Of a stretch of 36,424 nt of DNA, positions 3,985 to 30,100 are shown piece after piece; the stretch's first letter is position 1; each line of letters opens with the position of its first letter. The notes beneath the pieces were generated by a model. The model was given only the letters and a program-made list of their open reading frames with translations. It was not told the DNA's origin and ran no database searches. The stretch is from Acidobacteriota bacterium. Lineage in GTDB: Bacteria; Acidobacteriota; Holophagae; Holophagales; Holophagaceae. Location: the NCBI GenBank assembly GCA_018269025.1, contig JAFDVN010000102.1:1-36424 (forward strand), read 5' to 3'. A program made the position numbers and the translations under genes.

Positions 3985-5061
3985 ATGGGCATGCGAACAG
4001 TTATCGTGGGAAGCGGCTCGGTCCTGCCGCCGCGTGTCGTGGCGAACGCGGCCTTCCTTCAGCACGAGTTCCTGGACGCCGACGGATCGCCCATTCCAAA
4101 GGCCAATGCGGACATTCTGGCTCAATTCGAAGCCATTACCGGCATCCAGGAACGGCGCTACGCCGCCGAGGACCAAGTCTGTTCAGACCTTGCTCTGCTC
4201 GCCGCCCGGGATGCGCTCGCGTCGTCAAACCTGGATCCCGAATCCCTGGATGGGCTGATCGTCGCGCAGAATTTCGGCGATGTGCGACTTGGCAGCACCC
4301 AGTGCGACTTGGTGCCCTCCCTCGCCGCGCGGGTGAAGGCGGGGCTCGGCCTCCGCAACCCCGACTGCGCGGCCTTCGACCTCATCTTCGGCTGCCCCGG
4401 TTGGGTGCAAGGCGTCATCCAGGCAGACGCCATGGTCCGTTCCGGCCAAGCGAGGCGCCTCATGGTCATCGGCGCGGACACGCTATCCCGCGTCTCGGAT
4501 CCCCACGATCGCGACAGCCTCATCTACGCCGACGGCGCGGGTGCGGTGATCCTTGAGAGCCGGGAGACGACGGACGGCATCCTCGCCAGCGCTTCCCGCT
4601 CCCATGCCGTGGAAGGGTCCTGCCTTCTCACGACAGGCCCATCGTTCAAAAAGGACGCCTTCCCGGGCGAACGGTTCATCAAGATGGAGGGCCGCAAGCT
4701 CTACCGCTTCGCTGTCCAGCAAGTTCCCATCGCGCTCAAAGCCGCGCTGGACAAGGCCGGTGTGAAGCTCGCCGAGGTATCGAAGATCCTCATCCACCAG
4801 GCCAACCTCAAGATGGACGAAGCCATAGTGGATGGACTCTACGCCCTCGAAGGCTTGAAAGCCCCCGAAGGCGTGATGCCCATGACCATCGCGACGCTCG
4901 GCAACAGCAGCGTCGCCACCGTGCCCACGCTGCTCGACCTCATCACCAAAGGCCAATTGGATGGCCACACGATCCAACCCGGCGATCTCGTCCTCTTTGC
5001 TTCCGTCGGCGCGGGGATGCACATCAACGCGGTGGTGTATCGGGTGCCCAAGGGCGAATAA
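3985..5061 (+). CDS. 3-oxoacyl-ACP synthase III family protein
   Basis: A 358-residue thiolase-fold ketosynthase of the FabH type, which condenses a starter acyl-CoA with a malonyl-ACP-like extender. The catalytic triad is visible: Cys137 in FGCPGW, His271 in ILIHQANLKMD and Asn307 in TLGNSSVATVP. It differs from housekeeping FabH in sequence around the active site and stands alone, away from other fatty acid genes, so it may serve a special acyl product. Start could be ATG 3985 or the in-frame ATG 3991. An AT-rich stretch at about 3935-3955 may hold its promoter. The stop codon overlaps the first bases of a palindromic repeat. Confidence 0.88.
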   Translation: MGMRTVIVGSGSVLPPRVVANAAFLQHEFLDADGSPIPKANADILAQFEAITGIQERRYAAEDQVCSDLALLAARDALASSNLDPESLDGLIVAQNFGDVRLGSTQCDLVPSLAARVKAGLGLRNPDCAAFDLIFGCPGWVQGVIQADAMVRSGQARRLMVIGADTLSRVSDPHDRDSLIYADGAGAVILESRETTDGILASASRSHAVEGSCLLTTGPSFKKDAFPGERFIKMEGRKLYRFAVQQVPIALKAALDKAGVKLAEVSKILIHQANLKMDEAIVDGLYALEGLKAPEGVMPMTIATLGNSSVATVPTLLDLITKGQLDGHTIQPGDLVLFASVGAGMHINAVVYRVPKGE

Positions 5062-5116
5062 CAGGGATGAAGGGGACGGGTCCTGCCTTATCCCCTTCAT
5101 CCCCTTTATCCCTGTT
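5060..5116. repeat. Palindromic 9-nt-unit repeat, copy A
   Basis: The left arm (5060-5077) and right arm (5090-5116) form a hairpin; 16 of the 18 outer positions match. The right arm is built from units of 9 bases of the type CCCCTTCAT / CCCCTTTAT. The element starts within the stop codon of the FabH-like gene. It shares sequence and orientation (long arm on the right) with the copy at 5473-5537. Confidence 0.8.
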
Positions 5117-5195
5117 GATTCCATCTCTCTCTTCCATGGGCCGACACTCAGGCACGCGGGTGACGCCCCGACAGGTTCAGGTCCATGCTGTTTCC

Positions 5196-5483
5196 ATGGC
5201 CTTCCGCGCCTTCCACAAACCCCCGCCGCCGGAACCGGTCCCCATCTTCGGAGAACCTCCCATTCCCTTGGAATTCCTCCGGGACTTGTTCGCTTGGCTT
5301 GAACGGCCGGAGGCTCCCACCTGCACCCACGCCCACAAGGACACCATCCGCTTCCTCGTGGACCGCGACCTTCCCGCAGAGCCCGTGCTCAAGTGGCTCC
5401 GCGCCGGTGGCGGCTATTGCGACTGCAAGGTGGTAACCGAAGTCGCGGGGAAGTGGCGCGAAAAACAAGTTGAACAGGGATGA
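5196..5483 (+). CDS. DUF2695 family protein
   Basis: A 95-residue protein recognised as DUF2695-like from the ending LKWLRAGGGYCDCKVVTEV and the CTHAHKDTIRFL segment; Cys and His residues in these parts could bind a metal. No function is established for the family. The start is uncertain: ATG 5196 is chosen because the conserved part follows, but in-frame ATGs exist at 5136 and at 5067, the latter inside the repeat. The last three residues and the stop codon are encoded by the downstream palindromic repeat. The gene lies between two direct copies of that repeat, which suggests it arrived as a unit or that the repeats target gene ends. Confidence 0.72.
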   Translation: MAFRAFHKPPPPEPVPIFGEPPIPLEFLRDLFAWLERPEAPTCTHAHKDTIRFLVDRDLPAEPVLKWLRAGGGYCDCKVVTEVAGKWREKQVEQG

Positions 5484-5537
5484 AGGGGATGGATAGGTGG
5501 CAGTTCATCCCCTTCATCCCTTTCATCCCTGTGAATT
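5473..5537. repeat. Palindromic 9-nt-unit repeat, copy B
   Basis: The arms 5474-5493 and 5513-5532 match at 18 of 20 positions, around a short spacer. The right arm shows the 9-base period (CCCCTTCAT, CCCTTTCAT, CCCTGTGAA). It has the same orientation as copy A. Its left end encodes the last codons of the DUF2695 gene and its right end overlaps the stop codon (5536-5538) of the RNA methyltransferase gene on the other strand. The hairpin could act as a bidirectional terminator. Confidence 0.8.
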
Positions 5538-6330
5538 AAATTCCTTCCCGGTGCCCCGTCATCTGGTACATGAGGATGGCTCCGGCGGCGGCGACATTGA
5601 GGCTGTCCACGGCGTGGGCCATGGGGATGACGACGCGGCGGTCGCAGCGGAGGAGCCAGGCGGGGTCAAGGCCGGAGCCTTCGGGGCCGAGGACGAGCGC
5701 GCATCGGGGGGCGGGTTGCCAGCTATGGGCCACCTCGCTGCCGGGGCCCAACGCCGCCCCGACGATTTCACCCCCACGCCCTCGCCAACGCGCGAGCAGC
5801 TCGCCAGGTTCCTCCATGCGCCAAGCGGGCAACCGCCAGGCCGCGCCCATGGACACGCGGAGGGTGCGGCGACTCCAGAGGTCGGGCCCCTTGCCTAGCA
5901 GAACCCCATCCAGCCCTAACGCGGCGGCGCTGCGGAGCAGCAGGCCGAGGTTCTCGGCGTCATCCAGGCGCGGAAGCACGAGCAGGCGATCACAGGAGAG
6001 CAACGCTTCCTCGGGGGGCTGGGGCGGCACCTCCGCGCAGGCGAGCACCCCACGATGGAAGGGGAAGCCCGCCACGGCGTGAAGCTCTTCTTCCGGCGCC
6101 ACGAGCAGCACGGCTGTGGAGGGCATCTGGGGCTTCAGCTGTTCGGCGAGGGCGGGCGTGGTGGCGACGGAATGCACGACGAGGTGGCCCGCGCGGCCCG
6201 CTCGAAGGAGATCCTCCACGAGGATGCGACCTTCGGCGATGAAGACTTCCTGCTCCCCCATCTTCCGCCGCCCAGCGGACCGGAGATCCCGGTAGGGCGA
6301 CCAGAGCGGGTGGTCCGTGGCGAAGGGCAT
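5536..6330 (-). CDS. SpoU/TrmH family RNA 2'-O-methyltransferase
   Basis: A 264-residue methyltransferase of the SPOUT class that adds a methyl group to a ribose 2'-OH of rRNA or tRNA, using SAM bound in a knotted fold. The three signature motifs are seen: LDDAENLGLLLRSAAALG near the middle, LVLGPEGSGL, and IPMAHAVDSLNVAAAGAI near the end. An N-terminal substrate-binding part (EVFIAEGRILVEDLL) resembles the RlmB/TsnR type. The exact target nucleotide cannot be told. It is convergent with the DUF2695 gene, and its stop codon lies in the repeat between them. It starts 15 bases downstream of the end of the HutD-like gene, so the two may be cotranscribed. Confidence 0.9.
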   Translation of the reverse strand: MPFATDHPLWSPYRDLRSAGRRKMGEQEVFIAEGRILVEDLLRAGRAGHLVVHSVATTPALAEQLKPQMPSTAVLLVAPEEELHAVAGFPFHRGVLACAEVPPQPPEEALLSCDRLLVLPRLDDAENLGLLLRSAAALGLDGVLLGKGPDLWSRRTLRVSMGAAWRLPAWRMEEPGELLARWRGRGGEIVGAALGPGSEVAHSWQPAPRCALVLGPEGSGLDPAWLLRCDRRVVIPMAHAVDSLNVAAAGAILMYQMTGHREGI

Positions 6331-6345
6331 GGGCCTATTCTGCGC

Positions 6346-6924
6346 TCAGCGAGGGTCCAGGCGCACGAGAAGGCAGTGGCCTTCCGGCGAATGGCATTCA
6401 ACATCCACGGCTTCATGCTCCAGGCGCAGCGCCTCCAGGGGTTCCAGAGCGAGGTTCAAAGGTCGGATCGTCCACGATCCGTTCATGGCGATGAGCCAAA
6501 CCGTGGGCCCCGAAGGAATGGATACCGGGCCTTCGAGAGCGGTTAGGACGCGGACTTCCTGCCGCACTCGCGCGTGGTCGCTGATGACGCCGAAGTCGCG
6601 CACGGGACCTTGGGTGAGCGTGGCACGAGCCTCCCACGCGCCATCGAAGGCGACCGGCTCGAAGAGCGCGTCGAGGCGGACCTGACCCTGGCTCCCAAAA
6701 TCGAGGTCGAGGCCTTGGCCTTCCACCATCAACAGCGTGCGGTCATAACCCTCAAAGCGCGAAAAAGGCCCAGACCGCTCCACCCTCGCCATGCTCAGTC
6801 GCCACAGGAAGTCGTCGGCGAGGGTCGCATCTGGAGGCTCGATGGCGATCTGCTCGGTCACGCCACCGCCGTCCTTCCAGGGCATCGCCTGATAGTCGCG
6901 TGGGCGCAGATGCTGGAAAGCCAT
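6346..6924 (-). CDS. HutD/Ves family protein
   Basis: A 192-residue cupin-like protein of the HutD/Ves family. Family marks are MPWKDGGGVTEQIAIEP near the N terminus, WRLSMARVERSGPFSRFEGYDR, and LMVEGQGLDLDF. HutD genes often lie with histidine utilisation genes, where a role in controlling formiminoglutamate level has been proposed; Ves in E. coli is cold-induced. No hut genes occur here, so the family name does not give a function. The gene is divergent from the LysR regulator with 69 bases between starts, which makes it a possible target of that regulator. The RNA methyltransferase follows 15 bases downstream. Confidence 0.85.
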   Translation of the reverse strand: MAFQHLRPRDYQAMPWKDGGGVTEQIAIEPPDATLADDFLWRLSMARVERSGPFSRFEGYDRTLLMVEGQGLDLDFGSQGQVRLDALFEPVAFDGAWEARATLTQGPVRDFGVISDHARVRQEVRVLTALEGPVSIPSGPTVWLIAMNGSWTIRPLNLALEPLEALRLEHEAVDVECHSPEGHCLLVRLDPR

Positions 6925-6952
6925 GGTCCATTATTCCTTGGGCCTTCCTTTT

Positions 6953-6985
6953 TTTCTTTGCGTCCTTCGCGCCTTTGCGGTTCAA
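6953..6985 (+). repeat. Single-arm 9-nt-unit repeat (half copy)
   Basis: The stretch reads as three 9-base units close to TTTGCGTCC / TTCGCGCCT / TTGCGGTTC. It lies in the 69-base gap between the divergent HutD-like and LysR genes. No inverted partner is visible, so it is a half element compared with the hairpin copies elsewhere in the window. It may overlap promoter or operator positions for both genes. Confidence 0.5.
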
Positions 6986-14189: not shown

Positions 14190-14259
14190 GAACCACCGAT
14201 ACACAGCGATGAACACCGACCTGATTTCATCGGTGTCCATCGCTGTCCATCGGTGGTTC
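14190..14259. repeat. Long palindromic repeat, copy C (likely bidirectional terminator)
   Basis: The arms 14190-14220 and 14228-14259 match at 27 of about 30 positions around a loop of 7-8 bases. The right arm is built from 10-base units of the type CATCGGTGTC / CATCGCTGTC / CATCGGTGGT. The element fills the gap between the convergent EAL and mraY genes, starting 6 bases after one stop codon and ending 2 bases before the other. Its position fits a two-way terminator. Confidence 0.85.
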
Positions 14260-30031: not shown

Positions 30032-30100
30032 TCTCACCACGAAGACCACAAAGACCACAATGCTCATCTTTCGTGGTCTTTGTGGTCTTCGTGGTGAAGA
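30032..30100. repeat. Long palindromic repeat, copy D
   Basis: A perfect 24-base inverted repeat (30035-30058 and 30073-30096) with outer near-matches surrounds a 14-base centre. Each arm is made of 9-base units (CACCACGAA-GACCACAAA-GACCAC). It fills the gap between adenosine deaminase and the DHH gene, both on the minus strand. It ends 4 bases after the deaminase stop and begins 11 bases before the DHH start, so it can act as a terminator or as a transcript processing or attenuation structure. Confidence 0.88.

Follow-up and report, generated by a model that had tools for sequence, protein, structure and literature searches.

A DUF2695 gene between two gene-end palindromes in a Holophagaceae genome: probable separate copies of a dispersed MITE/REP-like element

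The two palindromic repeats that flank a small DUF2695 gene in a Holophagaceae genome are probably separate copies of a dispersed MITE/REP-like element that settles behind stop codons, with DUF2695 as a sporadic gene between two occupied gene ends. The elements supply stop codons and protein tails to several of the genes that they adjoin. The window, that is, the whole stretch of DNA analyzed, comprises 36,424 nucleotides of a 2.3-Mb draft genome (76% complete; the own genome). G001, a genome of the same genus, was used for comparison.

Results

Palindromes and genes at the DUF2695 locus

A FabH-like gene (beta-ketoacyl-ACP synthase III-like; 3985-5061, + strand) is followed by palindromic element 1 (5060-5116), the DUF2695 gene (PF10905, 95 aa; 5196-5483, + strand), palindromic element 2 (5473-5533) and a convergent SpoU-family RNA methyltransferase gene (5536-6330, - strand). 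No strand is assigned to the palindromes. The DUF2695 match was obtained with an E-value of 7e-10 and 39.4 bits, against a Pfam cut-off of 25, and the FabH-like and SpoU methylase domains were likewise confirmed. DUF2695 is the only gene between the two elements.

Element 1 consists of AACAGGGATGAAGGGGA, a loop and ATCCCCTTCATCCCCTTTATCCCTGTT, giving a short left arm (5060-5076) and a long right arm (5090-5116). Element 2, of the same family and in the same orientation, consists of AACAGGGATGAAGGGGATG, a loop and CATCCCCTTCATCCCTTTCATCCCTGT, again with a short left and a long right arm. The arms of both are composed of 9-bp units of GGGATGAAG type. The window contains six matches to the arm pattern, where chance would give 0.01, and both elements folded at -39 to -45 kcal/mol (z < -4). 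An earlier note on this DNA, which described two same-orientation palindromes with the long arm on the right on either side of the DUF2695 gene, was correct in this respect. Its placing of the FabH-like and methyltransferase gene ends at the outer edges was confirmed as well: the fabH-like stop codon TAA (5059-5061) shares its AA with element 1, and the SpoU stop codon (5536-5538) lies 3 bases from element 2. Between the two elements similarity was 0.814, ranking 53rd among 171 pairs, and their loops differ.

Following alignment of arms and flanks (n = 45), the outer consensus read AAAAA-N4-AWTNA-ACAGGG, of which the A-rich part is weakly conserved and lies outside many copies. Searching positions 4500-6500 against Rfam gave nothing at the gathering threshold. 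At the edges of the elements inspected, no direct repeat was seen by eye; as no target-site duplication was thus recognized, transposition is deduced from presence and absence only.

The DUF2695 stop codon TGA is situated inside element 2. The closest DUF2695 homologue found (G082, 62% identical) carries no repeat and ends in GKFPGKYC, whereas the window protein ends in GKWREKQVEQG; the end of the tail therefore comes from the repeat. Several unrelated genes (DUF2695, the GNAT genes in L062 and L063 and the GxxExxY genes in L059-L061) end in ..EQG* because the repeat contributes the codons GAA CAG GGA TGA. The last three DUF2695 codons and the stop had previously been ascribed to it. For the stop this is right, but the extent of three codons is not, since the weak outer consensus also covers the A-rich outer flank of element 2 (5460-5472, + strand; GAAAAACAAGTTG), which encodes part of the tail. 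The tail EKQVEQG* is at least partly repeat-derived and about the last seven codons (EKQVEQG) may have this origin.

Spread of the repeat family

Copies of the AACAGGG repeat family, to which both elements belong, number 22-23 in the own genome and are dispersed rather than arrayed. The repeat is present in 17 of 77 genomes of the bacterial family, with a patchy distribution. An unchanged 26-base arm was found in Holophagaceae, many Geomonas species, Desulfuromonadales, Spartobacteria and Pyrinomonadaceae. A reversed arrangement of the arms, with AACAGGG inside, also occurs. In G001, copies of the family (L066-L069) measure 123-231 bp, and the loop of several contains large, GC-rich inner inverted repeats. 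An IS1595-family transposase gene was observed between two arms of the family in a Holophagaceae MAG (L165:3110-4126). The view that arms propagate and loops are random was dropped, as a GGGTCCTGGC-like motif is common to some loops (by eye). The repeat letters gave no match in the open-licence literature.

DUF2695 itself is sporadic, occurring in 4 of 77 genomes of the family and in 26 of 396 of the phylum. Among the 25 testable DUF2695 loci elsewhere in family and phylum, none was accompanied by AACAGGG arms or bracketing inverted arms; two showed a direct repeat of unrelated sequence.

Gene-end hairpins in the genome

The two elements are part of a larger class. A 533-kb sample of the own genome, partly picked for contigs with the AACAGGG family or GxxExxY, yielded 52 strong hairpins, compared to 4 in a shuffled control. 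After exclusion of tRNA-like hairpins 49 remained, with a 9-base periodicity of the arms (z 10.9). At least nine arm families were distinguished (grouped by eye), at a density of about one element per 9 kb, which, like the distances below, is approximate because gene calling relied on a simple codon-usage script and contigs were partly selected. Neighbors could be read on both sides of 45 elements. A gene 3' end adjoins 42 of these, at a median of approximately 6 bp (41 within 51 bp, one at 76 bp), and the other three sit in divergent gaps. Expressed per gap, occupancy was 16/67 for convergent, 26/319 for codirectional and 3/63 for divergent gaps. The elements are short, multicopy and non-coding with terminal inverted repeats, as MITEs are.

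Other families are represented in the window. A gene-end palindrome with arms of another family (AACCACCGATACACAGCGATGAACACCGA; 14190-14259, no strand assigned) lies 5 bp past a predicted gene end. At 30034-30097 (no strand assigned), a palindrome of a third arm family (TCACCACGAAGACCACAAAGACCAC) forms a perfect 25-bp inverted repeat that fills the gap between two predicted genes; its arm recurs at L255:2316-2379. A further family is represented by a one-armed repeat (CTTCCTTTTTTTCTTTGCGTCCTTCGCGCCTTTGCGGTTC) at 6945-6983, upstream of a LysR-like gene.

Comparison with related genomes

Differences in presence and absence between genomes were not polarized by an outgroup and carry no direction of gain or loss. 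In G001, the interval between pyrC and SpoU is preserved as a locus but contains no DUF2695, yaiI, fabH or palindromes; instead, it holds short-chain dehydrogenase-like and DUF2721-like genes (both named by eye). With DUF2695, fabH and the palindromes all absent, the region has been rearranged, and since yaiI and fabH differ too, the change is larger than a 480-bp unit.

The earlier note had held that an empty site with one repeat copy in the fabH-like/methyltransferase gap of relatives would reveal a cassette. G001 indeed lacks both DUF2695 and the repeats between pyrC and SpoU, but an empty one-copy site was not found, because neighbors differ in the relatives compared. Approached through SpoU, the convergent neighbor differs across the Holophagaceae loci compared, leaving no clean comparison; approached through fabH, no other fabH locus had SpoU inside the flanks examined.

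Insertion polymorphism between related genomes, a further trait of MITEs, was found at another junction. In the own genome (L064) a palindrome lies 16 bp past the stop codon, while in G001 (L239) only 24 bp separate these two genes: one element was gained or lost without a gene. At two junctions with AACAGGG palindromes in the own genome (L063 and L071), G001 carries a palindrome of another family, so the same gene ends are used repeatedly by elements. At L063 a three-gene block is missing in G001, where only one palindrome, of another family, lies next to the two genes that flank the block.

GxxExxY genes and their arms

Seven GxxExxY genes (TIGR04256/PF13366 PDDEXK_3, nuclease-like) were identified in the own genome (L225-L231). 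Six lie between inverted arms whose sequence differs from pair to pair; the seventh, which is of the AACAGGG family, is accompanied by a palindrome only at its 3' end. Over own and related genomes, arms with a score >= 14 bracket 25 of 35 GxxExxY loci. For control genes of similar size the count was 6 of 41, five of these six being themselves GxxExxY genes, which leaves 1 of 36. The AACAGGG arm family itself brackets GxxExxY genes at L293 and L296.

At all five junctions tested, the GxxExxY gene was absent in G001: two were bare, and the other three carried a repeat of a different family without a gene (one-armed in one case). Several of the own-genome GxxExxY genes sit between codirectional genes that adjoin in G001, for example those for a thiolase and a 3-hydroxyacyl-CoA dehydrogenase. 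Upstream of glnS, a GxxExxY gene with an AACAGGG repeat is present in several genera (L059-L061, L068, L225), and in G001 no more than a 28-residue GxxExxY remnant precedes the palindrome at this site. By association only, the GxxExxY gene may be a candidate mobilizer of the elements.

Discussion

Separate insertions and their possible function

Under the favored explanation, elements would have inserted independently at the fabH end and at the DUF2695/SpoU junction, and insertion at the DUF2695 3' end would have replaced the last codons of the gene. The elements would be gene-less relatives of those whose same-kind arms enclose a GxxExxY nuclease-like gene, the product of which may mobilize them. 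Once in place, the hairpin may have a role at the 3' ends of mRNAs. That the two insertions at the DUF2695 locus were independent is what we infer, a clean empty site being lacking there.

The last step touches on a reading that we consider possible at best, namely that the palindromes are kept as bidirectional terminators or mRNA 3'-end stabilizers, their gene-end place reflecting selection and family turnover reflecting functional replacement. As it concerns function, it can be combined with separate insertion. The strength of the hairpins, the preference for convergent junctions and the occupation of the same junction by different families in sister genomes all agree with it, as does the A-rich outer flank, which on the other strand becomes a T-rich tract beyond the stem. 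However, no canonical intrinsic terminator (a hairpin followed directly by a T run) was detected in 4900-5700, many copies are situated between codirectional genes, and elements that avoid promoters and coding sequence upon insertion would yield the same distribution.

Insertion as a block

Separate insertion has to be weighed against the proposal, made previously for this locus, of a roughly 480-base DUF2695 cassette inserted as a unit. In its most explicit form, DUF2695 and the downstream repeat would have entered as a block through homologous recombination with a repeat that the fabH/SpoU junction already contained, leaving direct copies on both sides. We regard this as unlikely. What speaks for it are the sporadic occurrence of DUF2695 and an excess of same-family pairs: genome-wide, neighbors of the AACAGGG family within 2.2 kb formed 4 pairs, L063 being one of them, where a uniform model predicts 0.48 (P ~0.0015), and label shuffling gave p ~0.01 on the partly selected sample. 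This excess is not predicted by independent random insertion and counts against it, and block insertion therefore keeps a share of the probability. The search for other genes bracketed by the same repeat, suggested along with the proposal, yielded accessory-looking genes, namely a GNAT gene (L062), two membrane protein genes with a GNAT gene (the L063 block, with its absence from G001) and a RelE-like gene with a partner (L073, by eye).

On the other hand, neighboring element pairs of any family numbered 14 where density predicts 12. Together with the 25 DUF2695 loci that lack the repeat and the limited likeness of the two copies, with their different loops, this ranks independent insertion ahead of block insertion. 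Genes with a housekeeping look, for instance an mtnA-like gene (by eye), are moreover among those bracketed in other genomes, and the change relative to G001 exceeds the proposed unit. Elements are dense at gene ends in general, and the L064/L239 site shows one palindrome without a gene.

REP sequences and attC sites

Mobilization as a classical REP by a RAYT (Y1 tyrosine transposase) is improbable. Like REPs as described in the available text of PMC3733652, the palindromes are short, dispersed and intergenic and favor convergent and codirectional gaps. Nevertheless, the own genome, at 76% completeness, gave no match to Y1_Tnp (PF01797), many unrelated arm families with 9-bp units coexist, and the GTAG (or CGTC) tag that marks one end of a REP was absent from the palindrome ends in the 45 aligned arms and flanks read by eye (consensus AWTNAACAGGG). 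Integron-type attC sites ending gene cassettes would explain why a small gene ends in a palindrome but are highly improbable, as the copies are dispersed rather than in an array and paired GTTRRRY/RYYYAAC boxes are missing at both (none at element 1; a lone GTTRRRY at 5469 without RYYYAAC at element 2).

A wider view

Separate insertion of gene-free elements can be extended, tentatively, to a wider proposal that is more doubtful than the reading of the locus itself. Inverted repeats of 9-bp units and a GxxExxY gene might together constitute undescribed minimal mobile elements that cross phyla and settle behind stop codons. Unrelated arm families would compete for junctions, gene-free palindromes would be the non-autonomous forms, and an accessory gene such as DUF2695 could be enclosed and carried along by two of these. 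If the link is true, it offers a candidate enzyme and structure for palindromic gene-end repeats that occur in several phyla and for whose origin the accessible portions of the literature consulted offer no explanation, and a testable role for the GxxExxY proteins, which are seldom named in the open-licence literature. Gene annotation is affected as well, since some real proteins owe their stop codon and a short tail to an element.

Comparison with known systems

The available text of PMC2700814, PMC2996986, PMC3733652 and PMC10969869 does not make the link with GxxExxY; these belong to the open-licence literature, and an earlier description elsewhere is possible. The multicopy sequences of Geobacter, as far as presented in the accessible parts of PMC2700814 and PMC2996986, likewise include several palindromic or short-tandem families in intergenic regions. 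Similar sequences are reported there from many other genomes for a class built on CCYTC, which may, by description only, be the AACAGGG repeat family. Unlike here, they are read in those parts as putative IHF/HU sites, with no connection to gene 3' ends or GxxExxY.

Bacterial MITEs, reviewed in PMC10969869, which cites Chunjie of Geobacter uraniireducens, are according to its available sections short and non-coding, with terminal inverted repeats, a patchy distribution across species and insertion polymorphism, as are the present elements. They differ from these in that here no target-site duplication was recognized, no related transposase was identified and loops vary between copies. REP/BIME and TIRYT elements, in the portions of PMC3733652 available, are short dispersed intergenic palindromes that prefer convergent or codirectional gene pairs. 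As is seen here too, a gene can be flanked by some families, and TIR families vary among the elements of one genome. Yet no Y1 tyrosine transposase was found in our case, the arms consist of 9-bp quasi-tandem units and the enclosed gene is GxxExxY rather than RAYT. While the DUF2695 locus consists of two whole palindromes and holds no GxxExxY gene, it is the GxxExxY family whose genes are often bracketed by same-kind inverted arms, the AACAGGG family included.
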